Part shown: positions 4,042 through 32,654 of the stretch, piece by piece
How the letters are laid out: every line of letters begins with the position of its first letter
How positions within the stretch are numbered: the first letter of the stretch is position 1
NCBI GenBank assembly: GCA_015068655.1
Contig: SVKC01000021.1
Location: 1-32,654 of the forward strand
DNA from: Oscillospiraceae bacterium
Lineage (GTDB): Bacteria > Bacillota > Clostridia > Monoglobales > Monoglobaceae
Direction of reading: 5' to 3'
Length of the DNA: 32,654 nucleotides
Program-made: the position numbers and the translations under genes
The notes under the pieces: model-generated
Databases searched by the model: none
What the model was told of the DNA's origin: nothing
The model's input: the letters and a program-made list of their open reading frames with translations, nothing else

Positions 4042-4965
4042 TTATTTTATGGTTTTGATGTCGTATGGCGTTGTCTGGTAAACAAAGTAGTTCAGCCAGT
4101 TGGAATAGAGCAGATTTGCGTGAGCACGCCAGCTTACAACAGGGGTCTTTGTCGGGTCATCATTTGGAAAGTAGTTTGCAGGGACTTTTATGGGGAGTCC
4201 CTTTGCAACATCACGGTCATATTCTTTTTTCAATGTATCCCAATCATATTCCGAGTGTCCGGTAATGAAAAAACGACGCTCGTTTTTGTCTGTTATGATA
4301 TACACACCTGTTTCATCTGATTTTGCAAGAATATCAAGAGCAGGAACCTTGAGAATATCTTCTTCACGAACCTCAGTGTGACGGGATTGGGGAACATAAA
4401 AGACATCATCAAAGCCGCGGAGAAGGATTTTGTGTTTTTTGCCGGGTTCAACCTTGTGCGGAAATACCCCAAACACTTTTTCGGAAACGGGATATTTCGG
4501 CACTCCATAATGATAGTAAAGAGCAGCCTGAGCACCCCAACATATGTGGAAGGTGGAGGTGACATTTGTTTTTGACCACTCCATAATTTCACAAAGCTCT
4601 TCCCAGTAATCAACTTCTTCAAAGTCCATTTTTTCAACGGGGGCTCCTGTGATTATCATTCCGTCAAACTTGTTCTCCTTTATGTCATCAAAGGTCTTGT
4701 AGAATGTCTCAATATGGCTTTTTGATGTGTTTTTTGATTCGTGGGTTTTTGTATTTATGAACTGAACATTGATTTGCAGAGGCGTGTTCCCCAGAACTCT
4801 CAAAAGCTGGGTTTCTGTCTCGATTTTTGTGGGCATAAGGTTGAGTACCACTATTTCAAGGGGTCGGATGTCCTGAGTGAGAGCACGGGTTTCTGTTATA
4901 ACAAATATATTTTCGTTGTTAAGTATTTCGATTGCGGGTAAAGAGTCTGAAACCTTGATTGGCAT
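4042..4965 (-). CDS. metA: Homoserine O-acetyltransferase (MetA family)
   Basis: Full-length (307 aa) MetA-family enzyme, the first committed step of methionine synthesis, acylating homoserine. Catalytic Cys142 is in [10 protein letters not shown], and the His-Glu partners are H237 and E239 in TGHSEYD. Position 111 is glutamate (TGAPVE), the residue associated with acetyl-CoA use in Bacillus-type MetA. Succinyl-CoA enzymes such as that of E. coli have glycine there. O-acetylhomoserine is therefore the expected product, although the family is often labelled O-succinyltransferase. An AGGAGGGTGAT site lies seven bases upstream and a consensus-like promoter is at 5008-5036. I saw no SAM riboswitch or T-box in the short leader. 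The CpXC gene follows 12 bases downstream. Confidence 0.96.
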
Positions 4966-7350: not shown

Positions 7351-9816
7351 TTACTGGAGGGAAACAACAAAACTTTCGTCAACATAATCAATTTTGATAT
7401 TGCTGCCGTTTGGAATTTCACCAAGAAGCATTTTTTCTGCAATCATATCCTCAATATCGTTTTGAATTGCACGACGGAGGGGACGGGCACCGAAAACAGG
7501 GTCAAAGCCCACATCTGCAATCCGTTCAATAGATGCATCCGCAAATTCCGCAGTAATGCCGTTTGACATAAGTCTGTCCTTGAGTACATCCAGCATTTTT
7601 TGCGTAATATACTTTATGTCCTCACGGGAAAGCTGACGGAATACAATTGTATCGTCAATTCTGTTGAGGAACTCGGGACGGAAGGCTCTTTTGAGTTCTC
7701 CCATAACATCGGACTTGATTTTGTTGTAATCACGCTCGCTGTCATCAGGGGAGGTGGAGAAACCGAGAGACTTGCTTTCGGTAATCATTCTTGCGCCAAG
7801 GTTGGACGTCATAATAATTACAGTATTGCGGAAGTCAACTCGTCTTCCCTGAGAATCGGTGAGGATACCATCTTCAAGAATTTGCAGAAGGATATTGAAA
7901 ACGTCAGGATGTGCCTTTTCGATTTCGTCAAAAAGTATAACAGAATAAGGCTTTCTTCTGACCTTTTCGGTGAGCTGTCCGCCCTCATCGTAGCCAACGT
8001 ATCCGGGAGGTGAGCCAACAAGCCGTGATACGGCGTGCTTTTCCATATACTCCGACATATCAATTCGGATAATGGAGTCCTCATCGCCGAACATTGCTTC
8101 GGAGAGCGCCTTTGAAAGCTCGGTTTTTCCGACACCTGTGGGACCGAGGAAGATGAATGAGCCAATGGGGCGTTTCGGGTCCTTCAACCCTACTCTTCCA
8201 CGACGGATTGCCTTTGCAACTGCAGTAACGGCTTCGTTTTGTCCGATAACCCTTTTGTGCAGTTCTTCCTCGAGACGGAGAAGCCGCTGACTTTCGCCTT
8301 CTTCAATGGCTCTTACGGGAACACCTGTCCAGGAGGAAACTATTTCGGCTATTTCGTTTGGCGTAACCTCAACGGCTTCGTTTCGGCTTTCCTGCTCACG
8401 TGCTTTTTTCTCTGCCTTGAGATTTTCGGAAAGTATTCTTTCTTCGTCACGAAGCTTTGCGGCTTTTTCGTATTCCTGAGCGGCTATTGCAGCTTCTTTT
8501 TCCTTGCGCAGACTTTCGATTTTGTCTTCCTTTTCTTTGACATCAGGTGGGGTGGTAAGTGTCTTTATGCGTATTCTCGATGCCGCTTCGTCAATGAGGT
8601 CAATTGCCTTGTCGGGAAGAAAACGGTCGGGAATATAGCGTATTGACATTTTTACAGCAGCCTCAATAGCTTCGTCTGTTATAGTAACACGGTGGTGAGC
8701 TTCATACTTGTCACGGATTCCCTTGAGAATTTCAATGCTCTCCTCTGTGTTGGGCTCGTCAAGAACAATAGACTGAAAACGGCGTTCAAGGGCGGAATCC
8801 TTTTCGATATGTTTTCTGTATTCTTCGAGAGTGGTTGCACCGATAATTTGAATTTCACCTCTTGCGAGAGCCGGTTTCAGGATATTTGCGGCATCAATGG
8901 CACCTTCTGCGGCACCTGCCCCGATTATGGTGTGGATTTCGTCAATAAAGAGAATAATATTCCCTGCCTTGTGGATTTCCTCCATAACGCTTTTCAGACG
9001 TTCTTCAAATTCACCTCTGTATTTTGCACCTGCCACCATTGATGAAAGGTCGAGCGTAATAACCTTTTTGTCCTTGAGTATTTCAGGAACGAGTCCCTGA
9101 ACAATTTTCTGTGCCAAGCCTTCGGCAACGGCGGTTTTTCCGACACCGGGTTCACCGATAAGACAAGGGTTGTTCTTTGTTCTGCGACTGAGAATCTGGA
9201 TTACTCTTTCAATAACCTTGTCACGGCCGATAATCGGGTCAAGCTTCAACTCCCGTGCCATTCGGGTCAGGTCTCTGCCAAACTTGTCAAGGGTGGGTGT
9301 TTTTTCGTTTTTAACCTTTTTTGATGTCTGATGCATGGCATCGGGAGAAGGTCCTTCGTCGTAGATTTCGCCAAAGTTGTTTTCCTGCATAAGTCGTATT
9401 ATATCGGAATAGAGTTTGCCGGGGTTAAGGTCGAGGTCGGCAATTATGCGGAGAGCAAGACTTTCGGATTCACGAAGCAGTGAAATGAGAAGATGTTCTG
9501 TTCCTATATAATTGTGATTCAGCCTTCTTGCTTCGGAATAACTGTGTTCAAGAACACTTTTTGTCCGGGGTGTGAAACCTATGGAGCTTGCGTGAAGAGG
9601 CTGGTCGCTACCTACAAAGAATTCAATCTTTCCCACAACCCTGCTTTCGGTAATTCCATTATCCGCAAGAACTTTTGCGGCAACACCGTTGCCCTCTCTC
9701 ACAAGACCCAGAAGAAGATGCTCTGTGCCTACATAGTTGTGTCCCATATCCATTGCGGCTTTTGCCGAAAGATTAATGGCTGTTTTTGCGCGTTCTGTCA
9801 GTTTTTGTTCAAACAT
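7351..9816 (-). CDS. clpC: ATP-dependent Clp protease ATP-binding subunit ClpC
   Basis: Complete Hsp100 unfoldase of 821 aa that feeds proteins to the ClpP peptidase in protein quality control. It has two Clp-N repeats (about 1-75 and 76-145) and a first AAA+ domain with Walker A GEPGVGKT (221-228) and Walker B LFIDEIH. A coiled middle domain with a UVR-like segment ([12 protein letters not shown]) marks it as ClpC rather than ClpA or ClpB. The second AAA+ domain carries [18 protein letters not shown] precedes the start. It is the last gene of ctsR-mcsA-mcsB-clpC, 24 bases after mcsB. In this family McsB-phosphorylated arginines mark substrates for ClpC. Expression should be controlled by CtsR through the operator at 11848-11864. 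Confidence 0.97.
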
Positions 9817-9840
9817 ATAAAATCAATCCTTTCTGAATTG

Positions 9841-10833
9841 TTATTTCAAGTTTTCGCATATCAGCTCCGCACGTTTCAAATCACGTTCAAGAGCTGTTGA
9901 AATGTTATGGTTTTTGACCAAGGTCGCAGGCAGCGTGTCATAAAAGACCTTGCTCAAAGACTCAAGGTTTATGTTTTTGATTATTCCCAGATTTATGCCC
10001 CATCTTACATCCGAAAAAAGATTCATTGCTTCTTTGGAGGAAAGAATTCTTGCATTTGTCAGAATTCCGTAGGAACGCATAATTTTGTCTTCAAAATGGA
10101 ATTTGTTCCGGGAATAAAGACTTCTTCCGGCTTCACGTTCCTTTTCGATTATGTCATTCACGAGACGGGAAAGCTTTTCGAGAATTTCTTCCTCTGATGA
10201 GCCCAGTGTAACCTGATTTGAAATCTGATAAATATTGCCGTATGCACGGCTGCCTTCGCCATAAAGACCGCGAACGGTTATTCCGAGCTTTGAAAGGGAG
10301 CGGATTATTCCTTCCATTCTGCCAAGCTCGGTGAGTGCGGGAAGATGCATCATAACCGAAGCACGCATACCTGTTCCTACATTGGTGGGACAGCAGGTGA
10401 GATAGCCGAAAGTGGGATGGAATCCAAAGTCAACAGATTTTTCCAGAAGGTCATCAAGACGGTTGGCTTTTTCAAAACATAAGTCAAGGTCAAAACCGGG
10501 GGTCATAGCCTGAATACGTATATGGTCCTCTTCGTTCAGCATAATACATTCGGTACAATCGCTGTTTGTGAGAATTCCGCATTTTTTTTTGTTTTCAATC
10601 ATATCGGGACTGGTAAGGTGACATTCCGAAAGTGCCTGACGCTCTACGGGAGACATTGCTGAAAAGTCAATGAATGTCATATCGGGAAGAGCAGCTCTCG
10701 TTTTTTCCATAACCATAAACTGGTCTTTTTCTGACATTTTTGTGCCGAAGGGTATGTTGCGTATGTTTCTTGCGAGGCGAACCCTTGATGACAGTACAAT
10801 GTCCCCTGATGGACCAAATTTTGTGTACCACAT
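9841..10833 (-). CDS. mcsB: Protein arginine kinase McsB
   Basis: Protein of 330 aa of the phosphagen-kinase fold. McsB transfers phosphate from ATP to arginines on damaged proteins and on CtsR, tagging them for ClpCP. Diagnostic stretches are 'IVLSSRVRLARN' (12-23), the catalytic acidic loop 'LNEEDHIR', 'CPTNVGTGMRASVMMHLP' and 'GLYGEGSRAYGNIYQISNQ' for nucleotide binding. Its length is typically slightly under the Bacillus protein (363 aa). The start lies three bases beyond the mcsA stop with GAGAGGAG as ribosome site inside mcsA, so the pair is translationally coupled. McsA is its activator. Confidence 0.96.
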   Translation of the reverse strand: MWYTKFGPSGDIVLSSRVRLARNIRNIPFGTKMSEKDQFMVMEKTRAALPDMTFIDFSAMSPVERQALSECHLTSPDMIENKKKCGILTNSDCTECIMLNEEDHIRIQAMTPGFDLDLCFEKANRLDDLLEKSVDFGFHPTFGYLTCCPTNVGTGMRASVMMHLPALTELGRMEGIIRSLSKLGITVRGLYGEGSRAYGNIYQISNQVTLGSSEEEILEKLSRLVNDIIEKEREAGRSLYSRNKFHFEDKIMRSYGILTNARILSSKEAMNLFSDVRWGINLGIIKNINLESLSKVFYDTLPATLVKNHNISTALERDLKRAELICENLK

Positions 10834-23975: not shown

Positions 23976-25013
23976 ATGAAAATTAATCTTATGGATTTTT
24001 CCTGCGAGGAGCTGAAAAAGCTTGCAACAGAGCTGGGACAGCCTGCATTTCGGGGGAAACAGCTTTATGAATGGATTTACAAGGGCGCAGAAAGCTTTGA
24101 CGATATGACAAATATCTCAAAGGAGTTCAGGCAGAAGCTTGATGAGATTGCTGTAATAGGAAATGCAAAAATATCTGAAAAATATGTTTCAAAGATTGAC
24201 GAAACACGCAAGTATCTGTTAGAATTAGATGATGGGAACTTTATTGAGTCGGTTCTGATGAAATATGAGTACGGCTACACAATCTGTGTTTCATCGCAGG
24301 TGGGCTGCAAAATGGGCTGCAGGTTCTGTGCATCTACTCTCAACGGCTGGAGCAGAAATCTGTCACCGGGAGAAATTCTTTCTCAGGTGCTTTGTGTGCA
24401 GAAGGATTTGGGACAGCGGATTTCGAATATTGTTATGATGGGTATAGGAGAGCCTCTTGATAACTTTGACAATGTTCTGAAGTTTGTTGAGCTGGTCAAT
24501 GCTCCGGGTGGGCTCAATATAGGACAAAGACATATTTCGATTTCAACCTGCGGTCTTGCGGATAAAATCAGGATTCTTGCCGAAAAAAATCTCCAGATAA
24601 CCCTTCTCATATCCCTTCACGCACCTGATGATGAGAGAAGATCGGGGATTATGCCCGTGAACAATCGATTCAATATAAGTGAGCTTATGTCAGCCTGTGA
24701 TTATTATATTGAAAAAAGCGGAAGAAGAATTTCTTTTGAGTATACACTTATTTCAGGCGTAAACGATAATCTTGAAGAAGCTGATGTTCTTGCGGGGCTG
24801 TTGCGGGGCAAGCTTTGTCACGTAAATCTCATTCCTGTCAACAAGGTGAAGGAAACAGGCTTTGACAAGAGCAGCCGAAAGAGAGTTGACGAATTCAGAA
24901 ACAGACTTGAAAAGCGAGGTATTTCTGCAACTGTCCGGCGTGAGATGGGTAGTGATATTAATGCGGCGTGCGGTCAGCTCAGAAACAGAAAATCAAATAT
25001 TCCGACGGAATGA
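23976..25013 (+). CDS. rlmN: Dual-specificity 23S rRNA A2503 / tRNA A37 C2-methyltransferase RlmN
   Basis: Radical SAM enzyme of 345 aa that methylates C2 of A2503 in 23S rRNA and A37 in some tRNAs. The iron-sulfur cluster cysteines are C111, C115 and C118 (CKMGCRFC). The methyl-carrying cysteine is probably C332 in NAACGQL near the C-terminus. 'GIGEPLDN' and '[12 protein letters not shown]' are further family motifs. The ribosome site is weak (GAAGGGA, well upstream of the ATG), so translation may depend on the preceding rsmB. It ends 56 bases before the phosphatase start. Confidence 0.97.
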
Positions 25014-25069
25014 AACTTTCGTCTTACATAAAAATGAACCCGATATCCGGGCAGAAAGGCTATGGTAAT

Positions 25070-25843
25070 ATGGTGGTAAAAGTATGCGGTATGACCGATA
25101 TAGGAAAGCGGCGTGAGCTGAATGAAGACAGCTTTGAAATACGTGGCTTTGAAAACGGCACACCCCTCGGTGTGTGTATTCTGGCAGACGGTATGGGCGG
25201 TCATAATGCAGGTGAGGTTGCCAGCAGTATGGCGGCAAAGGCTGTTGCTGATGAGCTGTGTGAGAGCTTTGATGAGGAAGACAGCAAAAAAATAATAAAA
25301 AATATGGCATCTGCAATTGACTATGCTAATGCAACGGTTTTTGAAAAATCCCTTTCAAGCCGTGAACACGCAGGAATGGGAACAACTCTTGTTGCGGCTT
25401 ATGTGAAGGATGCAAGTATTCGGTTTGCTAACATAGGTGACAGCCGGGCATATGTAGCCAACAATGAAAGCATATGCAAGATAACAGTTGATCATTCGGT
25501 AGTTGAGGAAATGGTTCAACGTGGAGCAATTACCCGTGAGGAAGCCAGAGTGCATCCTGACAAGAATATAATTACAAGGGCTTTGGGCACTGAAAACTAT
25601 GTGGATGCTGATTTTTATGATTACAGTGCTTCTGCCGGTGAAACGGTTGTTCTTTGCAGTGACGGACTTACGGAAACGGTGTCCGAAGAGGAAATCCGCG
25701 AAATTGTCACAGCTGATGAAGATGTATGTGAGATAGTAAAAAAACTTATTGACAAAGCTAATGAAAACGGCGGTTTGGACAACATAACGATTGTTGTAAT
25801 CCGTTTTGAAAAGGAGGAGAAATCAGATGACGCTGATAGGTAA
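25070..25843 (+). CDS. prpC: PP2C-family Ser/Thr protein phosphatase (PrpC/Stp)
   Basis: Metal-dependent phosphatase of 257 aa that reverses phosphorylation by the adjacent PASTA kinase. Metal ligands are in RRELNEDSF (D20) and LADGMGGHNAG (D40, G41). 'NIGDSRAYV', 'LCSDGLTE' and 'DNITIVVIRF' complete the PPM motif set. I place the start at 25070, giving a length close to the Bacillus PrpC, with AGAAAGG ten bases upstream; an in-frame ATG at 25034 is possible. The kinase start lies inside its 3' end (17-base overlap), so the two are coupled. Confidence 0.94.
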   Translation: MVVKVCGMTDIGKRRELNEDSFEIRGFENGTPLGVCILADGMGGHNAGEVASSMAAKAVADELCESFDEEDSKKIIKNMASAIDYANATVFEKSLSSREHAGMGTTLVAAYVKDASIRFANIGDSRAYVANNESICKITVDHSVVEEMVQRGAITREEARVHPDKNIITRALGTENYVDADFYDYSASAGETVVLCSDGLTETVSEEEIREIVTADEDVCEIVKKLIDKANENGGLDNITIVVIRFEKEEKSDDADR

Positions 25844-27743
25844 TGTTCTCGCCGGAAGGTATGAAATACTTGAAGAAATCGGTAGCGGAGGTATGGCGGT
25901 TGTATACAAGGCAAGATGCCAACTGCTCAACAGATATGTGGCAGTGAAGGTTTTGCGTCCTGACCTCCAGAATGATGCGGAGTTCGTTCGCAGATTCAAT
26001 GTGGAAGCACAGGCGGCGGCAAGCCTCACTCACCCGAATATTGTATCTATTTTTGATGTGGGTGTTGAAAATGGACTCCATTATATCGTAATGGAATATG
26101 TTGAGGGTGAAACCCTGAAAAAGTATATTGAGAAGAAAGGTGTTCTTCCCTGGCGTGAGGCTGTGGATTATGTAATTCAGATTGCAAGAGGTCTTGACCA
26201 GGCACACAAGAATTCCATTGTACATCGTGATATAAAGCCTCACAATATTATTATGACCTCTGACGGGGTTATGAAGGTTACGGACTTTGGTATTGCAAGA
26301 GCAAATATGCAGTCAACTGTCACTTGTGAGGATACGGCTATTGGCTCGGTGCATTATATTTCTCCGGAACAGGCAAGAGGCGGTTATACCGATGAAAGGT
26401 CGGATATTTATTCTCTCGGTGTTGTTCTTTATGAAATGCTGACGGGAAAGCTTCCTTTTGACAATGAAAGACCAGTTACGGTTGCAATTATGCATCTCCA
26501 GTCAGAACCGGTGCTCCCAAGAGAGTATAATATCAGTATTCCGCTGACTCTTGAGAATGTTGTGATGAAGGCTATGGCGAAGGATGTAGCATCCAGATAC
26601 AAGAACACATCTGAAATGATTGCCGATCTCACAGCAGTGCTCAACGACCCTGAGAGAACTGTTGTAAGCGAGCAGACAGAAGAACAGCCGGATGCGGACA
26701 GTACCTTGATAATGCCTGCTGTGAAGCTTGACGGTGCGGATGGAAAAACGGAAGAGCTCTCCGGAAAAGAAGCGGGTGAAGAGAAAATCAGGGAGGAAAA
26801 GAATAATATGGCAGAAAGGAAAAATCGTATTTCACAAAATGAAATTGACAAGAAGAAAGAGAAAAAGGTTATTTCTTTCGCAATTGCGAGTGCGGCGGCA
26901 ATAATCATTGTTATTGTTCTTGCGTTTATGTGGGTAAGCGGATTTTTCGGTACTGATTCAAGCAAGATTGTTATACCGAGCCTGGAAGGGATGCTCTATG
27001 AAGAGGCTGTGGAAAAGTATGTCAAAAATGCAGATGAAAGCCTCGGCTACGGTTTTAATATTATAAAGGGTGATAACGTTGTCAGCGACAAGGAAAAAGG
27101 TACAATTGTTTCCCAATCTCCCAAAGCAGGAAGCAAGCAGGAGAAGAAAGATATAATAATGATTACCGTTGAAATCAGCGAAGGCAAAGAAGATATACGT
27201 CTTGAGAATTATACAAAATATCGTGACGAACGTGAAGTAGAGATTGCGTTAAAGAAGCTTGGTCTCAGGGTTGATTTTGTTGAGGAATACAGCGAAGATA
27301 TTCCGAAAGGCTCAATCATCCGACAGGATCCTTCTTCGGGCTCTTATGTGCGCCCGGGGGATGAGGTTGTGCTTTATATAAGCAAGGGACCTGAAAAGAC
27401 TGAGGAAGAAGAGAAGGAAAAGGAAACCGAAAAAACTGACGATACAAAAAAAGAAGAAGAAAAGCAGGAACCTGACAAAACAGAGTCTGAAAAAACACCT
27501 GATGAAAAGACAAATGAAGGTGAAAAGGTGCAAAAAAAGAGTTCAACTCTAACCTTGTACGGTCCAAAAGACAAGGAAAGTGCTGTTGTTCAGGTTAATG
27601 TAAACGGCAGAACTGTATACAGCAAAAAGCTCCTTAAAGGCGAAAGCGATGTTGTAAGGCTTGAAGGCACAACAAATTCGGTTGATGTTGAGATTCTTCA
27701 TGACGGTGTATCTCAGCAGAAGGGAACTGTAAGACTTCACTAA
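25827..27743 (+). CDS. prkC: Transmembrane PASTA Ser/Thr protein kinase (PrkC/Stk)
   Basis: Kinase of 638 aa sensing cell-wall fragments and controlling growth, wall synthesis or germination. The kinase domain (10-275) has GSGGMA (19-24), K41, E60, HRDIKPHN (133-140, catalytic D135) and DFG (153-155); the activation loop carries threonines near 164-170. An acidic and basic linker leads to one membrane helix (349-371). Outside the cell are only two PASTA repeats (about 378-454 and 455-522), versus three in Bacillus PrkC. A Glu/Lys/Thr-rich spacer (523-571) and a compact C-terminal region (572-638) with no recognised family follow. GGAGG ten bases before 25827 decides the start. The preceding gene is its phosphatase. 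Confidence 0.95.
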   Translation: MTLIGNVLAGRYEILEEIGSGGMAVVYKARCQLLNRYVAVKVLRPDLQNDAEFVRRFNVEAQAAASLTHPNIVSIFDVGVENGLHYIVMEYVEGETLKKYIEKKGVLPWREAVDYVIQIARGLDQAHKNSIVHRDIKPHNIIMTSDGVMKVTDFGIARANMQSTVTCEDTAIGSVHYISPEQARGGYTDERSDIYSLGVVLYEMLTGKLPFDNERPVTVAIMHLQSEPVLPREYNISIPLTLENVVMKAMAKDVASRYKNTSEMIADLTAVLNDPERTVVSEQTEEQPDADSTLIMPAVKLDGADGKTEELSGKEAGEEKIREEKNNMAERKNRISQNEIDKKKEKKVISFAIASAAAIIIVIVLAFMWVSGFFGTDSSKIVIPSLEGMLYEEAVEKYVKNADESLGYGFNIIKGDNVVSDKEKGTIVSQSPKAGSKQEKKDIIMITVEISEGKEDIRLENYTKYRDEREVEIALKKLGLRVDFVEEYSEDIPKGSIIRQDPSSGSYVRPGDEVVLYISKGPEKTEEEEKEKETEKTDDTKKEEEKQEPDKTESEKTPDEKTNEGEKVQKKSSTLTLYGPKDKESAVVQVNVNGRTVYSKKLLKGESDVVRLEGTTNSVDVEILHDGVSQQKGTVRLH

Positions 27744-27753
27744 GAGGTGAATA

Positions 27754-28629
27754 ATGGGTATTTTTGAAGGCGTTATTACAAAGGGAATCGGCGGATTTTA
27801 TTATGTGAATACCGAAGAAGGCTTGTTTGAATGCCGTGCGAGAGGAATTTTCAGGAAGCGGGGCTTTGCCCCGCTTGTGGGTGATTGTGTTGTTATTGAA
27901 ACAAGTGACAGTTCTCACGGCGTGATAAACGAAGTAAGAGAGCGGAAAAACTCTCTTATTCGTCCTGCGGTAGCAAATGTTACGCGTATGGCTGTGGTAG
28001 TCGCTGTGTCAAGCCCTGTGCCAAATCCGTATATTCTGGACAAGCTCATCGCATCAGCTGAATTTGCAAAGCTGAAAATTGCCGTGTGCTTCAACAAGTC
28101 CGACCTTGGTGGTTCGGAGGATTTGGTGGAAGCATACAAAAATGCAGGCTTTGAGGTTGTTGTGACAAGTGCGGCTGAAAATATCGGGATTGACGAACTC
28201 AAAAATTTTCTTGCGAACGAAATAACCGTCTTTGCAGGTAATTCAGGTGTGGGTAAATCCAGCTTGATTAATCGCCTGATGGAACGTGATATGTTTGAAA
28301 CGGGGACCGTGAGCGAAAAACTGGAACGTGGAAGACATACAACGAGACATTCCGAGCTTGCACCACTACCCTTTGGAGGATATATTATAGATACGCCCGG
28401 GTTCAGCTCCTTTGATGTGAATACTATTCCTTTGGAGGGACTTTCGGATATGTTCAGAGAGTTCGGAAACGTTGAAGGCGGTTGCCGCTTTCCTGATTGC
28501 AGTCACAGAACCGAACCTGATTGTTGCATTATTAATGCTGTGAGGGACGGAAAAATTGCTGTGAGCAGACACGAAAGTTATGTTCAGCTGTATAACGAAA
28601 TCAAGACAGCAAAAGAAAATATATACTAA
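27754..28629 (+). CDS. rsgA: Ribosome small subunit-dependent GTPase RsgA
   Basis: Circularly permuted GTPase of 291 aa (YloQ/CpgA) that checks late 30S assembly. The N-terminal OB domain covers 1-70. The GTPase motifs occur in permuted order: G4 NKSD (114-117), then G1 GNSGVGKS (162-169), then G3 DTPG (213-216). The zinc site uses C244, C249, H251 and C257 in GGCRFPDCSHRTEPDC. AGAGGTGA precedes the ATG. It lies 10 bases after the kinase; in Bacillus this GTPase is a PrkC substrate, and the gene order is conserved. Confidence 0.96.
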   Translation: MGIFEGVITKGIGGFYYVNTEEGLFECRARGIFRKRGFAPLVGDCVVIETSDSSHGVINEVRERKNSLIRPAVANVTRMAVVVAVSSPVPNPYILDKLIASAEFAKLKIAVCFNKSDLGGSEDLVEAYKNAGFEVVVTSAAENIGIDELKNFLANEITVFAGNSGVGKSSLINRLMERDMFETGTVSEKLERGRHTTRHSELAPLPFGGYIIDTPGFSSFDVNTIPLEGLSDMFREFGNVEGGCRFPDCSHRTEPDCCIINAVRDGKIAVSRHESYVQLYNEIKTAKENIY

Positions 28630-28644
28630 AAGAGGAAACATATT

Positions 28645-29304
28645 ATGAATGAAATAAAAATAGCACCATCTATTCTGGCGGCTAATCCTGCGAAGATGGG
28701 TGATGAACTCAAAAAAATTGAAGATGCCGGTGCAGATTATGTCCATATAGATATTATGGATGCTCATTTTGTGCCGAATCTTGCTTTTTCTCCTGCAATG
28801 GTGAAGGCTTTCAAACCGCTGTGCAAGCTTCCTTTCGATGTGCACCTGATGATTACCGACCCAAAAAAGTACATACCGGTTTTTGCAGAAGCGGGAGCGG
28901 ATATTATAACGGTACATCAGGAGGTTACGGAAGACCTTGGGGAAATGGCTGACTTTATTCATCAATTCGGTGTGAAAGCCGGTATTTCTGTAAAACCCGG
29001 AACACCTGTTGAAGTTCTTGAGGGTTATATTGACACATTTGATTTGGTGCTTATTATGACAGTTGAGCCGGGCTTTGGGGGACAGTCTTATATTGAGGCA
29101 ATGAACGAAAAAATTGCAAAGGCAAGACAGATGATTGAGAAAACGGGAAAAGCTATTGAGCTTGAAATTGACGGAGGAGTTACGCCTGCCAATGTGGCTA
29201 CTCCAGTGTCATATGGTGCAAATGTAGCTGTGGCAGGCTCGGCTGTTTTCAATGCTGCTGATGCGGCGGCGGTTATTTCGGAAATGAGGGCAAATGCAAG
29301 GTGA
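28645..29304 (+). CDS. rpe: Ribulose-phosphate 3-epimerase
   Basis: TIM-barrel enzyme of 219 aa interconverting ribulose 5-phosphate and xylulose 5-phosphate in the pentose phosphate pathway. 'IAPSILAANPAKMGDEL' opens the barrel. 'YVHIDIMDAHFVPNLAFSP' carries the metal-binding His-Asp pair, and 'FDVHLMI', 'MTVEPGFGGQ' and 'LEIDGGV' are the later strand motifs. An alanine replaces the common glycine in MDAHFVPN, which should not matter. It follows rsgA by 15 bases and overlaps the thiN start by four. Confidence 0.97.
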   Translation: MNEIKIAPSILAANPAKMGDELKKIEDAGADYVHIDIMDAHFVPNLAFSPAMVKAFKPLCKLPFDVHLMITDPKKYIPVFAEAGADIITVHQEVTEDLGEMADFIHQFGVKAGISVKPGTPVEVLEGYIDTFDLVLIMTVEPGFGGQSYIEAMNEKIAKARQMIEKTGKAIELEIDGGVTPANVATPVSYGANVAVAGSAVFNAADAAAVISEMRANAR

Positions 29305-29924
29305 AGTGTTATATTTTTTGTTCGTCAAAAATTGAAAACTATGAATATTTGAAAAGCTTTGATTTTGTATCAGGGCTTGTAATTTGTGCAGACGGCGGAT
29401 ATTCTCATGCCAAAAAGCTTGGACTTGTGCCTGATTTGTGGATTGGTGACGGAGATTCTCTGGTTTCTAAAAATGTTGTTGCAAAGGAAATAATGACTTT
29501 TCCTGTACAGAAGGATAATACCGACACCGACCTTGCGGTTATGGAGGCATTGGCACGGGGCTGTGAGGAAATAATAATTCTCGGCGCTCTGGGAGGTCGG
29601 CTTGACCATGAGTTTTCACATTTTTGCTTGCTTAAAAAAATTATGGAGCACGGAGCAAAAGGTTTTTTGATTAACGAAAACAATGAAATAACAATGGAAA
29701 ACAAAAGCTTCACTGTTTTTCCGAATGGAAGGAAATATATCTCGTTCTTTCCGTTTGGGGGAGACGTGAAGAATTTTTCAGTCAAAGGTCTTTGTTATGA
29801 GGCTGAAAATATGAATCTGGTTTGCGGCGAGGTACAGGCGAGCAGCAATTGCTTCGATGGAGAAAAATGTGGTGAGATTTCCTTCGAATCAGGAAACATC
29901 CTCGTTGTCAGGTCGGATGATTAA
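29301..29924 (+). CDS. thiN: Thiamine pyrophosphokinase
   Basis: Enzyme of 207 aa making thiamine diphosphate from thiamine and ATP. Motifs are ADGG (30-33), PDLWIGDGDS (44-53, with the metal-binding aspartates), KDNTDTDLA (71-79) and GALGGRLDH (95-103); these are the standard catalytic-domain set. The start is a GTG overlapping the rpe stop (GTGA), which suggests coupling; AGG immediately upstream lies too close to act as a normal ribosome site. The C-terminal thiamine-binding part is complete. Position after rpe matches yloS/thiN in Bacillus. Confidence 0.93.
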   Translation: MKCYIFCSSKIENYEYLKSFDFVSGLVICADGGYSHAKKLGLVPDLWIGDGDSLVSKNVVAKEIMTFPVQKDNTDTDLAVMEALARGCEEIIILGALGGRLDHEFSHFCLLKKIMEHGAKGFLINENNEITMENKSFTVFPNGRKYISFFPFGGDVKNFSVKGLCYEAENMNLVCGEVQASSNCFDGEKCGEISFESGNILVVRSDD

Positions 29925-29938
29925 TCGGAGGTTTTTGA

Positions 29939-32287
29939 ATGAGAAGAGTACATTGCTTGATTCTTACTATTATATTTGCGGTCGGGATGCTTTCTTCTGT
30001 GGTTGTTATGGCAGAAGAGGTGCAGAAAACCGTAAAGGTCTATGATAATACAAAGTTTTTATCCGTCGGGGAAATAGGTTTGTCGGATGTTTTGTATGAG
30101 GGTGATTTGTCGGGTGCCGCAAACTACATTAATTACAAGGGGCTTGGCGGAATCATTGTGTTGTCGGATGATGTAAAACTGTCCGGTGGTATTACTCTCA
30201 ATGCGGTCAACAATTTGGCTTCATCAATAGTTGTTGACGGAGCGGTAACTATTGACCTGAACGGTTATTTTATTACCCAGTTTGCAGGCAGTGAACAGAA
30301 TGACAATGCTTTGATAATTGTTCCAAAGGGTAGTTCGTTGACTATTGTAGATTCCTCGGCAGACAAAAAGGGTGTTGTGGACGGAGTTCAGTATGCTGTT
30401 TCTGTTCAGGGCGGAAGTCTTGTTGTGGAAAACGGTATATTTTCAGCACAGTCTCAGGCAGGGATAATGGATGAAACAGAACTTCCTTTGTCGGTTACGG
30501 ACGGCGGAAGCCTTCGTATGACTGATGGTGTAATAAGATACAGCGGTACGCTGGATGACGGAAGACTTTATTACGGCACAACGGGAGCACTGTTTGTAGA
30601 TAGTGAAAGCAAGGCTGAAATATTCGGTGGAACGGTTTATGGAAGCGTTGAAGCGGAAAGCAAAGAGAATGTAAAGATTTTCGGCGGAAGCTTTCAGAGT
30701 GATGTTTCTGAGTTTTTGACTGATATATATGGTTTGAGCACAAAAGATGGTCTTTGGGTTGTTGGAGAGAAGCTTCCGGCGGTAGAAGAGGTTACGAACA
30801 ACGGAAGTGCAAAGGCTGATGTTTCGGCTGAGCTTGATGAAGACCGAGAAAGCATAAAAAAATATACTGTTCGTGCAACTTCAAGCGGTGATACAGTAAA
30901 AAAATCCGTCAAGCTCAACATTACAGATATTGTGAAAACGGCGGCATCCCTTCGCAATGTGCCTGATGTGGAAGTTGTTACAGACTTTGCAGCATTGACT
31001 TTTTCGAAGGAGTATATAAACGAGCTGTCGGATGAGGTTAATGGGGTTTGTTTAACTGTTGAAAAGAATTATATGCTTGATGCGAAGCTTCTTTCAAAGG
31101 CTGAAAAGGCAAGGTATGAGATAAGCTTTTCTTTACGCAACGAAAAGGGCGAAGCTGTTGTGTCGGGGCAAAAGGCTTCAGTGAACATTCTCCATTCCGG
31201 TGCACGACCTGATGACAGCATACAGCTTTTTTCCTGGGACGGAGAAATTCTTTCGCATATGAACAGTAATGTCGGTAAAGGAAGGATTCTTTGCGAAGCT
31301 GAAAGCGGTGAAAAAGTGGTAGTTTCGGAAGGTACGATTCTGCTTATTACTTCGCGTATGCTTGATATGCGTGGTGCTTTGTCCATAGTTTTCTATGCTA
31401 CGGTAAGCGGTATTGATATTTTGGATGTGAAAATGCTTTTCTGGGATTCACCTCAGGTAGAGTATACAGAAAAAACAGCACACAGAATAGTTTCATATAG
31501 TGGCAAGGATTCAAATGGTTATAGATTTGTGTATGAAAATATTGCCGCAAAGGATATGGGACAGGATATATATGCAAGATTGGTTGCGACCGATGCAACG
31601 GGGAGGAAAATATATACGGATAATCCTGAATATCCGTACAGCGTAACGGCTTATGCGGAGAATATGAACCGGGATGAAAAGTTGAGACCTTTGCTTGTTC
31701 GGCTTTTGAATTATGGAGCAGCGGCACAGGAGTATTTCGGTTCGGAGTATAGCCCTGTAAATCAGAATGAGTGGATGTCTGATGGCGACCGTGCTATGGA
31801 TTTTACGAAGGTGTATCTGAGCGATGCAAAAGCTTTGGCAGAGGAAAACACAAATGAAAAGTGTATTTCAAGAATTGCGGGCAAAACCCTGATTCTTGAA
31901 GGTGATATTACGCTGAATTATTATGTTTCTTCCGATGAAGAAGTTGATGAAACGGGGGTTTTGTTCTGGACTAAGGAAGCTTTTGCTGATACGGAAAAGC
32001 ATATTATGGGAACACAGTCCTCAGTTGTCAGGGATTACACAGAGAACGGCAAATACAAGGTGTTTTCGTTGAAGAATATCGCGGCAAGTGAAATATTCGA
32101 GCCTGTCTATGCCCGTGTCTATACAAAAAAGAATAATGTTTACAGGTACAGCGATATAGATTTGTACAGCGTGAAGGATTATGCAGCAAATCAAATAGAA
32201 AAGAATGACAATCCAAAATTGGTAAAGCTGCTTAGATGTTTGCTTCTTTACGGTGACGAGGCGGCAAAGTATTTTGGGGAAGACTAG
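29939..32287 (+). CDS. Large secreted protein with beta-helix-like region and duplicated C-terminal domain
   Basis: I do not recognise a named gene. The protein has 782 aa with a signal peptide (about 1-25, cleavage likely after VVVMA) and no later membrane segment, LPXTG or S-layer motif. Residues about 95-260 contain repeated short strands with GG turns (GSSLTIVDSS, GGSLVVENGIF, GGSLRMTDGVI, KAEIFGGTVYG, NVKIFGGSF), suggesting a right-handed beta-helix. The C-terminal part has two related copies (about 479-602 and 648-780), each with LFW, an 'NIAA' segment, YARL or YARV, and a helical end (LLNYGAAAQEYFG and LLLYGDEAAKYFG). That C-terminal type is, as I recall, common in Clostridia surface proteins of unknown function. 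CGGAGG eight bases before the ATG is strong. It lies 14 bases after thiN, so it may share its transcript, and ends convergent with the next gene. Confidence 0.85.
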   Translation: MRRVHCLILTIIFAVGMLSSVVVMAEEVQKTVKVYDNTKFLSVGEIGLSDVLYEGDLSGAANYINYKGLGGIIVLSDDVKLSGGITLNAVNNLASSIVVDGAVTIDLNGYFITQFAGSEQNDNALIIVPKGSSLTIVDSSADKKGVVDGVQYAVSVQGGSLVVENGIFSAQSQAGIMDETELPLSVTDGGSLRMTDGVIRYSGTLDDGRLYYGTTGALFVDSESKAEIFGGTVYGSVEAESKENVKIFGGSFQSDVSEFLTDIYGLSTKDGLWVVGEKLPAVEEVTNNGSAKADVSAELDEDRESIKKYTVRATSSGDTVKKSVKLNITDIVKTAASLRNVPDVEVVTDFAALTFSKEYINELSDEVNGVCLTVEKNYMLDAKLLSKAEKARYEISFSLRNEKGEAVVSGQKASVNILHSGARPDDSIQLFSWDGEILSHMNSNVGKGRILCEAESGEKVVVSEGTILLITSRMLDMRGALSIVFYATVSGIDILDVKMLFWDSPQVEYTEKTAHRIVSYSGKDSNGYRFVYENIAAKDMGQDIYARLVATDATGRKIYTDNPEYPYSVTAYAENMNRDEKLRPLLVRLLNYGAAAQEYFGSEYSPVNQNEWMSDGDRAMDFTKVYLSDAKALAEENTNEKCISRIAGKTLILEGDITLNYYVSSDEEVDETGVLFWTKEAFADTEKHIMGTQSSVVRDYTENGKYKVFSLKNIAASEIFEPVYARVYTKKNNVYRYSDIDLYSVKDYAANQIEKNDNPKLVKLLRCLLLYGDEAAKYFGED

Positions 32288-32654
32288 TCTTTTATGTCAG
32301 AGAGCTTTATTCTTATGCCATACCTGGTGATATGCTCAAGGATATGTGTTTCGGTGAGAATATTGGTTATATGATTGTTTTCGTCAATGACGTTTATGAT
32401 ACAGAAATAATCATAGCTCAAAAGCTTCAACAAAACGGAAGCGGATGCGGTTTCCGATGCACAGAAGGTTTTTGCGGGGAGAAGGGTTCTTTCTTTGAGT
32501 TTTGTGGGATTTTCGAGAATTTCACGAAGTGCTATGTGTGAAAGCAATTTTTGTTCTGTACTCAGATTCTGAAGAAGAAATGCAGAGACAAGGATGAGTG
32601 AAAAATTGAAGCCGCTCTGAAAAAACAAGCAAAAGGCTGTAACGAGAAGTGCGG
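32284..32654 (-). CDS. Partial CDS, possible SpoIVFB-like M50 peptidase C-terminus (5' end outside window)
   Basis: The minus-strand frame is open to the window edge, giving at least 123 residues, of which only the C-terminal part of a longer gene is visible. A hydrophobic stretch comes first (ALLVTAFCLFFQ through SLILVSAFLLQ), ending a membrane region. After a basic linker (REILENPTKLKERTL) a soluble domain contains YFCIINVIDENNHITNILTE and ends THILEHITRYGIRIKLSDI. This layout and the 'TE-x-H/ILE-x-I-x-x-YG' ending resemble the CBS-like tail of SpoIVFB-type site-2 proteases, but the catalytic HExxH part is not in the window. The stop codon shares CTAG with the stop of the convergent secreted protein gene. 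No internal start is claimed. Confidence 0.5.
   Translation of the reverse strand, partial: ALLVTAFCLFFQSGFNFSLILVSAFLLQNLSTEQKLLSHIALREILENPTKLKERTLLPAKTFCASETASASVLLKLLSYDYFCIINVIDENNHITNILTETHILEHITRYGIRIKLSDIKD

Follow-up and report, generated by a model that had tools for sequence, protein, structure and literature searches.

Fibrillar adhesins are described in a passage of PMC9210967 as an adhesive head, a repetitive stalk and a cell anchor, many of the anchors being unknown. A passage of PMC6712302 describes the Cthe_2159 domain as binding cellulose and polygalacturonic acid. We analyzed a gene for a multidomain protein that looks secreted, located near the end of the window (the whole analyzed stretch of DNA, 32,654 nt); no known adhesive, stalk or anchor domain was found in its product with Pfam and NCBIfam. 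Our preferred reading, tentative and at somewhat less than an even chance, is that its product is a surface protein, secreted and in contact with polysaccharide, which carries a C-terminal retention or binding pair, and that the gene is probably the last of the PASTA-kinase unit.

The first-pass annotation had placed a secreted-type ORF of 782 residues 14 bases past thiN. Both the ORF, which starts with ATG, and the 14-nt gap, counted from the thiN stop codon (29924), were confirmed (Table 1). The N-terminus of the protein was hydrophobic and ended in VVVMA/EE, and neither a lipobox-like match nor a transmembrane-like stretch further on was present in the protein; to judge by its sequence, it is probably secreted. 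Pfam yielded sub-threshold matches only, both for the whole protein and for its C-terminal copies, and NCBIfam and PDB sequence searches with the protein gave no match. No paralogue of the protein, and none of its middle domain, was encoded in its own genome.

Table 1. Features of the locus, in positions of the window.
Feature	Position	Strand	Basis
Gene for secreted-looking multidomain protein, 782 aa	29939..32287	+	orthologues in 8/9 same-genus genomes, own included
Ribosome-binding-like site GGAGG, 7 nt ahead of ATG	29927..29931	+	read directly
Signal-peptide-like segment, residues 1–25, cleavage site inferred	29939..30013	+	hydrophobic window in first 90 residues
Predicted right-handed beta-helix head, residues 28–273	30020..30757	+	AF2 model and VIA-align
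Predicted GAIN/ZU5-like middle domain, residues 280–468	30776..31342	+	VIA-align, weak Foldseek, genus alignment
C-terminal module copy 1, residues 473–603	31355..31747	+	profile, BLASTP, shuffles, model
Linker between copies, residues 604–648	31748..31882	+	low confidence in model
C-terminal module copy 2, residues 649–782	31883..32284	+	profile, BLASTP, shuffles, model
thiN, thiamine diphosphokinase, upstream neighbor	29301..29924	+	NCBIfam TIGR01378 over cut-off
rpe, ribulose-phosphate 3-epimerase	28645..29304	+	NCBIfam TIGR01163 over cut-off
rsgA	27754..28629	+	NCBIfam TIGR00157 over cut-off
PASTA-domain Ser/Thr kinase	25806..27743	+	NCBIfam NF033483 over cut-off
PP2C-type phosphatase	24968..25843	+	NCBIfam NF033484 over cut-off
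M50-type membrane peptidase, C-terminal part, convergent, cut by window end	32293..32607	-	tblastn

A beta-helix-like region had been claimed for the N-terminal part, and this fold is supported by the AF2 model of residues 27–476 (mean pLDDT 71.5, pTM 0.51) together with VIA-align, in which Z reached 11.5. The head, aligned over model residues 2–247, was best matched by Cthe_2159 (4phb; Z 11.5, rmsd 4.0, 176 aligned residues, 20% identity), and further matches included a phage tailspike (Z 11.1) and pectate lyase PelI (Z 10.4). Other beta-helices trailed Cthe_2159 by within about 1 Z unit; the modeled head is that of the right-handed parallel beta-helix fold and not of the Cthe_2159 family in particular. 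With Foldseek, no match of the same model was obtained at E ≤ 0.001. Queried with the complete protein, Pfam (E up to 10, within HMMER's filters) did not report PF14262.

The VIA-align matches of the middle domain fell on model residues 253–445. They comprised 9fqr_Hn (Z 9.8), GAIN domains (Z 7.5–8.9, a tentative fold match), including those of CD97, CELSR1 and BAI3 (Z 8.4–8.9), and 3kbu_D from a beta-spectrin/ankyrin complex entry (Z 8.0); ankyrin ZU5 was matched weakly (Foldseek, E ≥ 0.08). The domain had no sequence-family match and aligned throughout the genus orthologues.

Orthologues were found by protein search in eight of the nine genomes of the genus, the own genome included. The parts common to them were the middle domain and the C-terminal pair; a beta-helix head was present only in the protein of the window and in that of G004, which were weakly grouped in the thiN+rpe tree (support 69/48). 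Among the six headless orthologues, five were complete frames of 541–586 residues, and that of G003 was cut C-terminally by the contig. The earlier interpretation stands as regards the module, the beta-helix and the steady position of the gene, with the correction that the beta-helix is not a constant part of the protein (2/8 orthologues). This distribution bears on the reading of the protein as an enzyme, whose beta-helix would have polysaccharide lyase or related enzyme activity and would merely be delivered by the remainder. Structural matches of the head to pectate lyases, fucoidan lyase, mannuronan epimerases and tailspike depolymerases agree with such a role. However, six of the eight orthologues have the middle domain and the pair but no beta-helix, which means that the core function cannot lie in an activity of the head; also, no Pfam lyase family was matched at E up to 10. 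We consider the enzyme reading very improbable.

The two C-terminal copies claimed in the first-pass annotation were borne out, and the LFW, NIAA, YAR and LL-x-YG patterns were found in the sequence as described. The copies shared 34% identity over 134 columns (BLASTP, E 4e-07), their local alignment score was 112 against a shuffled mean of 30.4 (sd 5.5, maximum 59, 2000 shuffles), and the profile placed two copies of a module of about 130 aa at the borders given in Table 1. In the model of residues 462–782 (pLDDT 72.1, pTM 0.48), both halves had the same predicted architecture, an Ig-like beta sandwich followed by two helices, in line with the expected structural likeness. The linker had pLDDT < 50 at model residues 132–167, i.e., residues 593–628. 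The alignments behind this model and the N-terminal one held five sequences each.

Foldseek ranked tandem FnIII and Ig domains highest for the pair, at low TM-scores (about 0.2 on the query). With VIA-align, copy 1 was best matched by 3aqx, a laminarihexaose-bound beta-GRP domain (Z 8.7), and copy 2 by BhCBM56 (5t7a, Z 8.3). Both copies matched many Ig-like folds at Z of about 6.7–8.7, in a pair model of the above pTM and in a range where unrelated models often reach Z near 8; together with the low TM-scores, this makes the CBM matches of the pair weak. Pfam FnIII, Big or CBM families (E up to 10) were matched neither over the pair in the window protein nor in either copy alone. In the proteins scanned, every Pfam or NCBIfam model that passed its cut-off left the pair uncovered. 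FlgD_ig in L133 (23.1 of 27 bits), Phage_XkdX in L047 (15.2 of 23.5 bits), TIGR01638 in L051 and NF045980 in L052 (49.7 of 450 bits, residues 276–469, the pair beginning near 407) reached into the pair; all were below cut-off and were rejected as names for it. The columns best conserved across families were F, M, Y, Y, L-Y-G and Q; they look like fold core near the helices and not like an exposed sugar platform. The tryptophan of LFW was not retained in the rows of the family of G152.

The claim that the copies define a module was upheld, since profiles matched unrelated secreted-looking proteins in other Clostridia families. With a profile of genus copies (E ≤ 0.001), the module was detected in 5 of 196 genomes of the class, counting the own one. 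Within the family, a genus-copy profile matched 8 of 38 genomes; all eight belong to the own genus, and the module was absent from the genomes of the family's other genera in this profile search. With a profile of non-genus pairs (E ≤ 1e-5), the pair was found in 10 of the 16 genomes sampled from the G152 family; the highest number of matches in a genome was 11, of which two are fragments of a single pair. Across the phylum sample, only 2 of 398 genomes, counting the own one, were matched by the pair profile (E ≤ 1e-5); the module is thus patchy. When the genus module and the distant pairs were compared profile against profile, the probability was 99.2% and E 3e-19, which is a confirmation and not an independent test, because the distant rows had been found with the genus module. 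The copies needed three label changes both in the 80-copy tree and in the 36-copy tree (copies from 18 of 40 proteins), which suggests repeated duplication or divergence; the constraint of all second copies to one group was still not rejected (p-AU 0.077).

We examined 40 ORFs with the pair: seven genus orthologues and chosen loci, not every match. A stop codon was seen in 38 of them, one L124 ORF and that of L125 being cut by contig ends. The pair ended ≤5 residues from the stop in 33/38 ORFs, seven of the 33 being genus orthologues; outside the genus, it stood at the C-terminal end in 26/31. In the other five (L048, L050, two in L126, and L140), it was internal, and a lone module copy was found near the N-terminus in two G633 ORFs; a strictly C-terminal anchor was therefore rejected. 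A hydrophobic stretch within the first 90 residues was present in 32 of the 33 ORFs closed N-terminally by a stop, and no transmembrane-like stretch beyond residue 90 was found in any of the 40. Sortase-like strings occurred in four pair ORFs: in three of them far from the end, and in the fourth, L140, as an NPGTG string 46 residues ahead of the end, without a hydrophobic tail. One lipobox-like match was found in L136.

Pfam was applied to 24 of the 40 ORFs, counting P0001. Over Pfam cut-off, the pair was combined with heads of extracellular types (SASA esterase, transglutaminase, CHAP, CAP, LRR_5, ricin lectin, cohesin and F5/8C), as well as with metallo-beta-lactamase, GDSL lipase, MBG_2, Flg_new_2 and Big domains; matches to GH99 and to a pectate-lyase-like adhesive domain were below cut-off. 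SLH and dockerin domains had no match at E ≤ 0.001 in these 24 ORFs. Scans of viral_contigs by a few peptide patterns gave no relative, and none was found among plasmids. Phages, queried with the G152 pair only, gave one 33% match in an unannotated 'Bacteriophage sp.' record (MT838250), which is unverified and may be bacterial DNA; mobility by phage is unsupported, and a phage or plasmid origin was rejected on these searches.

The occurrence of the pair on diverse heads of extracellular type, mostly at the C-terminal end, favors a retention or binding role. Alternatively, the pair could be mainly a structural spacer or dimerization unit, similar to FnIII tandems and without a ligand of its own, while the heads bind. 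The tandem FnIII pairs among the top Foldseek matches and the core-like appearance of the columns conserved across families speak for a spacer. Spacers, however, are usually internal and vary in number, whereas the pair stands at the C-terminal end in most cases, and each of the 40 ORFs matches at least a part of both halves, although the search profile was itself built from pairs and the two lone copies are known. Taken together, we regard the spacer reading as rather unlikely, and return to the retention or binding pair below.

The gene order upstream was rsmB-rlmN-PP2C-PASTA kinase-rsgA-rpe-thiN, all over NCBIfam cut-offs. On the other side, the M50 fragment had 53% identity (tblastn, E 9e-34) with the M50 protein of G001, which carries Pfam PF02163. 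A sporadic position of the gene in relatives, which would speak against its tie to the unit, was not observed: rpe and thiN preceded it in all eight orthologous loci. The listed start lay between 8 nt inside the thiN end and 18 nt past thiN in seven of the eight loci; in L006, the overlap with thiN came to 71 nt, and a further ATG inside the frame lay 25 nt past thiN. The order PP2C-kinase-rsgA-rpe-thiN-gene was kept in all four relatives L057–L060 (the PP2C gene being cut by the locus edge in L057), which are 'Clostridia bacterium' MAGs from goat, water deer, roe deer and sheep gut.

In the ninth genome of the genus (G007), the gene was absent from this place, a convergent M50 gene lying about 45 nt past thiN, and no match to it was found elsewhere in the genome. 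In the thiN+rpe tree, built from nine genus and five outgroup genomes, G007 grouped with G006 (support 98/97). As G007 is nested beside G006, the gene was probably lost in G007, and its gain in only a part of the genus is less likely. The presence of thiN without the gene in G007 indicates that the tie to the unit is dispensable. In the family as a whole, thiN was detected in 35 of 38 genomes, and in 16 of 21 loci of the other genera it was followed by a forward open frame of about 160–220 codons.

Patterns of promoters and terminators were scanned over positions 27700–32654; such scans neither prove nor rule out an operon. On the + strand, the interval from 29644 to 30440 was free of promoter-like sites, and that from 29607 to 31352 was free of terminator-like ones. 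Weak promoter-like sites of this strand lay further up, one in rpe (29030, matching 11 of 12) and two in thiN (29550, 10 of 12; 29615, 9 of 12), so an internal promoter may exist; terminator-like sites were located at 29253, 29354 and 29595. Over the two strands together, promoter-like sites numbered 14, close to the shuffled rate of 9.9 (sd 3.5), and terminator-like sites 11 against 3.4 (sd 1.7).

It is possible, though we lean against it, that the gene merely hitchhikes after thiN under its own control, unconnected with the PASTA-kinase unit in function or regulation. The family's other genera, which lack the gene and have different ORFs after thiN, agree with this, as do G007, which kept thiN and M50 and probably lost the gene, and the promoter-like and terminator-like sites of the + strand listed above. 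Against it are the 14-nt gap with the ribosome-binding-like site, the stretches free of promoter-like and terminator-like sites on the + strand, the near-shuffled rate of promoter-like sites and the same place of the gene in all eight orthologous loci. Based on the gap and the motifs, co-transcription of the gene with the PASTA-kinase unit is plausible.

According to the preferred reading, the protein would be secreted and then stay associated with the cell surface in this genus of gut Clostridia. The beta-helix head, where present, would bind or process polysaccharide, the GAIN/ZU5-like domain would act as a spacer, and the C-terminal pair, each half an Ig-like sandwich plus helical hairpin, would retain the protein on the envelope or on a substrate glycan; the gene is probably transcribed last in the PP2C-PASTA kinase-rsgA-rpe-thiN unit. 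The polysaccharide part is favored by 3aqx, BhCBM56 and Cthe_2159 as the best structural matches. The layout of the domains, the duplication, the occurrence of the pair on unrelated heads and the constant place of the gene in the genus are observed, and the folds are predicted by models, whereas secretion, ligand, retention and co-transcription are inferred. The weak Z values, the core-like conserved columns, the internal and lone copies, the absence of the gene from G007, the promoter-like sites in thiN and rpe and the terminator-like sites of the + strand count against the preferred reading.

The own genome encoded 65 SLH domain matches, with the pair in one gene only, and the nine genus genomes had 15 to 74 SLH matches each and no sortase match. 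That the genome already has an SLH route and uses the pair once counts against the preferred reading. In G623, 11 pair matches and no SLH match were found, and G152 and G624 carried both. The pair is thus not a simple stand-in for SLH, least so in the own genus, which is rich in SLH. A farther-reaching version, in which the pair is an undescribed surface-retention system of gut Clostridia on a shared receptor that one genus has wired into its PASTA-kinase operon, seems to us distinctly unlikely. If true, it would provide unrelated enzymes and adhesins with an alternative to SLH domains, sortase tails and dockerins, the shared receptor would be an envelope glycan or an S-layer component, and cell-wall sensing would be coupled to protein display in one genus.

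Accessory modules that are shuffled among secreted proteins and have a widespread beta-sandwich fold are the known part of these results. The new part is the pair with its predicted Ig-like-plus-helical-hairpin architecture, for which the Pfam and NCBIfam copies searched contain no model; searches of the open-licence PMC library, judged by titles and the opening of abstracts, found no mention of the module. Modules on unrelated heads show how a bacterium targets a group of its secreted proteins to a single site, and if the pair binds an envelope or plant glycan, esterases, transglutaminases, lectins and adhesins would share this address. Since the pair is uncatalogued and one genome can carry it in about ten places, a profile of it would annotate many blank secreted proteins of gut Clostridia. 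The location behind the PASTA-kinase unit offers a simple genetic test for surface display tied to cell-wall sensing.

Among the described systems, Cthe_2159-type proteins (PF14262; 4phb) share with the window protein a beta-helix in a Clostridia protein and are the best structural match of its head, whereas this head has no PF14262 match and is joined to a middle domain and a C-terminal pair. FnIII and Ig-like tandems and the glucan-binding CBMs (3aqx, which we take to be CBM39-like, and CBM56, 5t7a) resemble the pair in the modeled beta sandwich of each copy; the copies add two C-terminal helices, and the likeness is that of a common fold, from which a relationship is possible. The middle domain may share its fold with GAIN/ZU5-UPA domains, to judge by the GAIN alignments and the weak match to ankyrin ZU5. 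The autoproteolysis-type motif of GAIN domains, H-(L/F)-(S/T), was not seen at the end of the middle domain. Neither a PF00395 SLH domain nor an LPXTG-type tail is present in the window protein, in which it differs from SLH- and sortase-anchored proteins; it resembles them in being secreted-looking and modular, with extracellular heads and a common unit that is mostly C-terminal.

The gene immediately following the orthologue of the 782-aa protein gene was the convergent membrane peptidase (M50) gene in our window and at loci L003, L004, L006, L007, and L008. At L057, the locus of the same-genus genome G004, two genes separate the orthologue from M50 (see table).

Features at loci other than the window
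Locus	Coordinates	Feature
L057 (G004)	within 7471-10502	SPASM-type radical SAM protein, weak PqqD match
L057 (G004)	within 7471-10502	Orn/Lys/Arg decarboxylase-like protein
L009	G015:C4:52175-52441	35% match to beta-helix residues 77-171 (E 8e-6)
L123 (MT838250.1)	4056-4781	relative of the C-terminal module pair, 33% identical

The beta-helix match at L009 falls in a 1321-aa open frame of G015, a genome of a different genus within the same family. Genome G633 encoded single copies of the C-terminal module at two loci (L102 and L111), each close to the N-terminus. The MLFW motif of the L102 copy was of the window-genus type, unlike the form in the pairs of the other family (that of G152); the region downstream of this lone copy looks LamG-like by eye. 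The scaffold carrying L123, an unverified record from human faeces labelled 'Bacteriophage sp.', may represent bacterial rather than phage DNA.

Regarding known routes of surface attachment, no sortase match was identified in any of the nine genomes of the genus, the window's own genome, G000, included. SLH-domain matches numbered 65 in G000 (1.78 Mb) and from 15 to 74 per genome across all nine.
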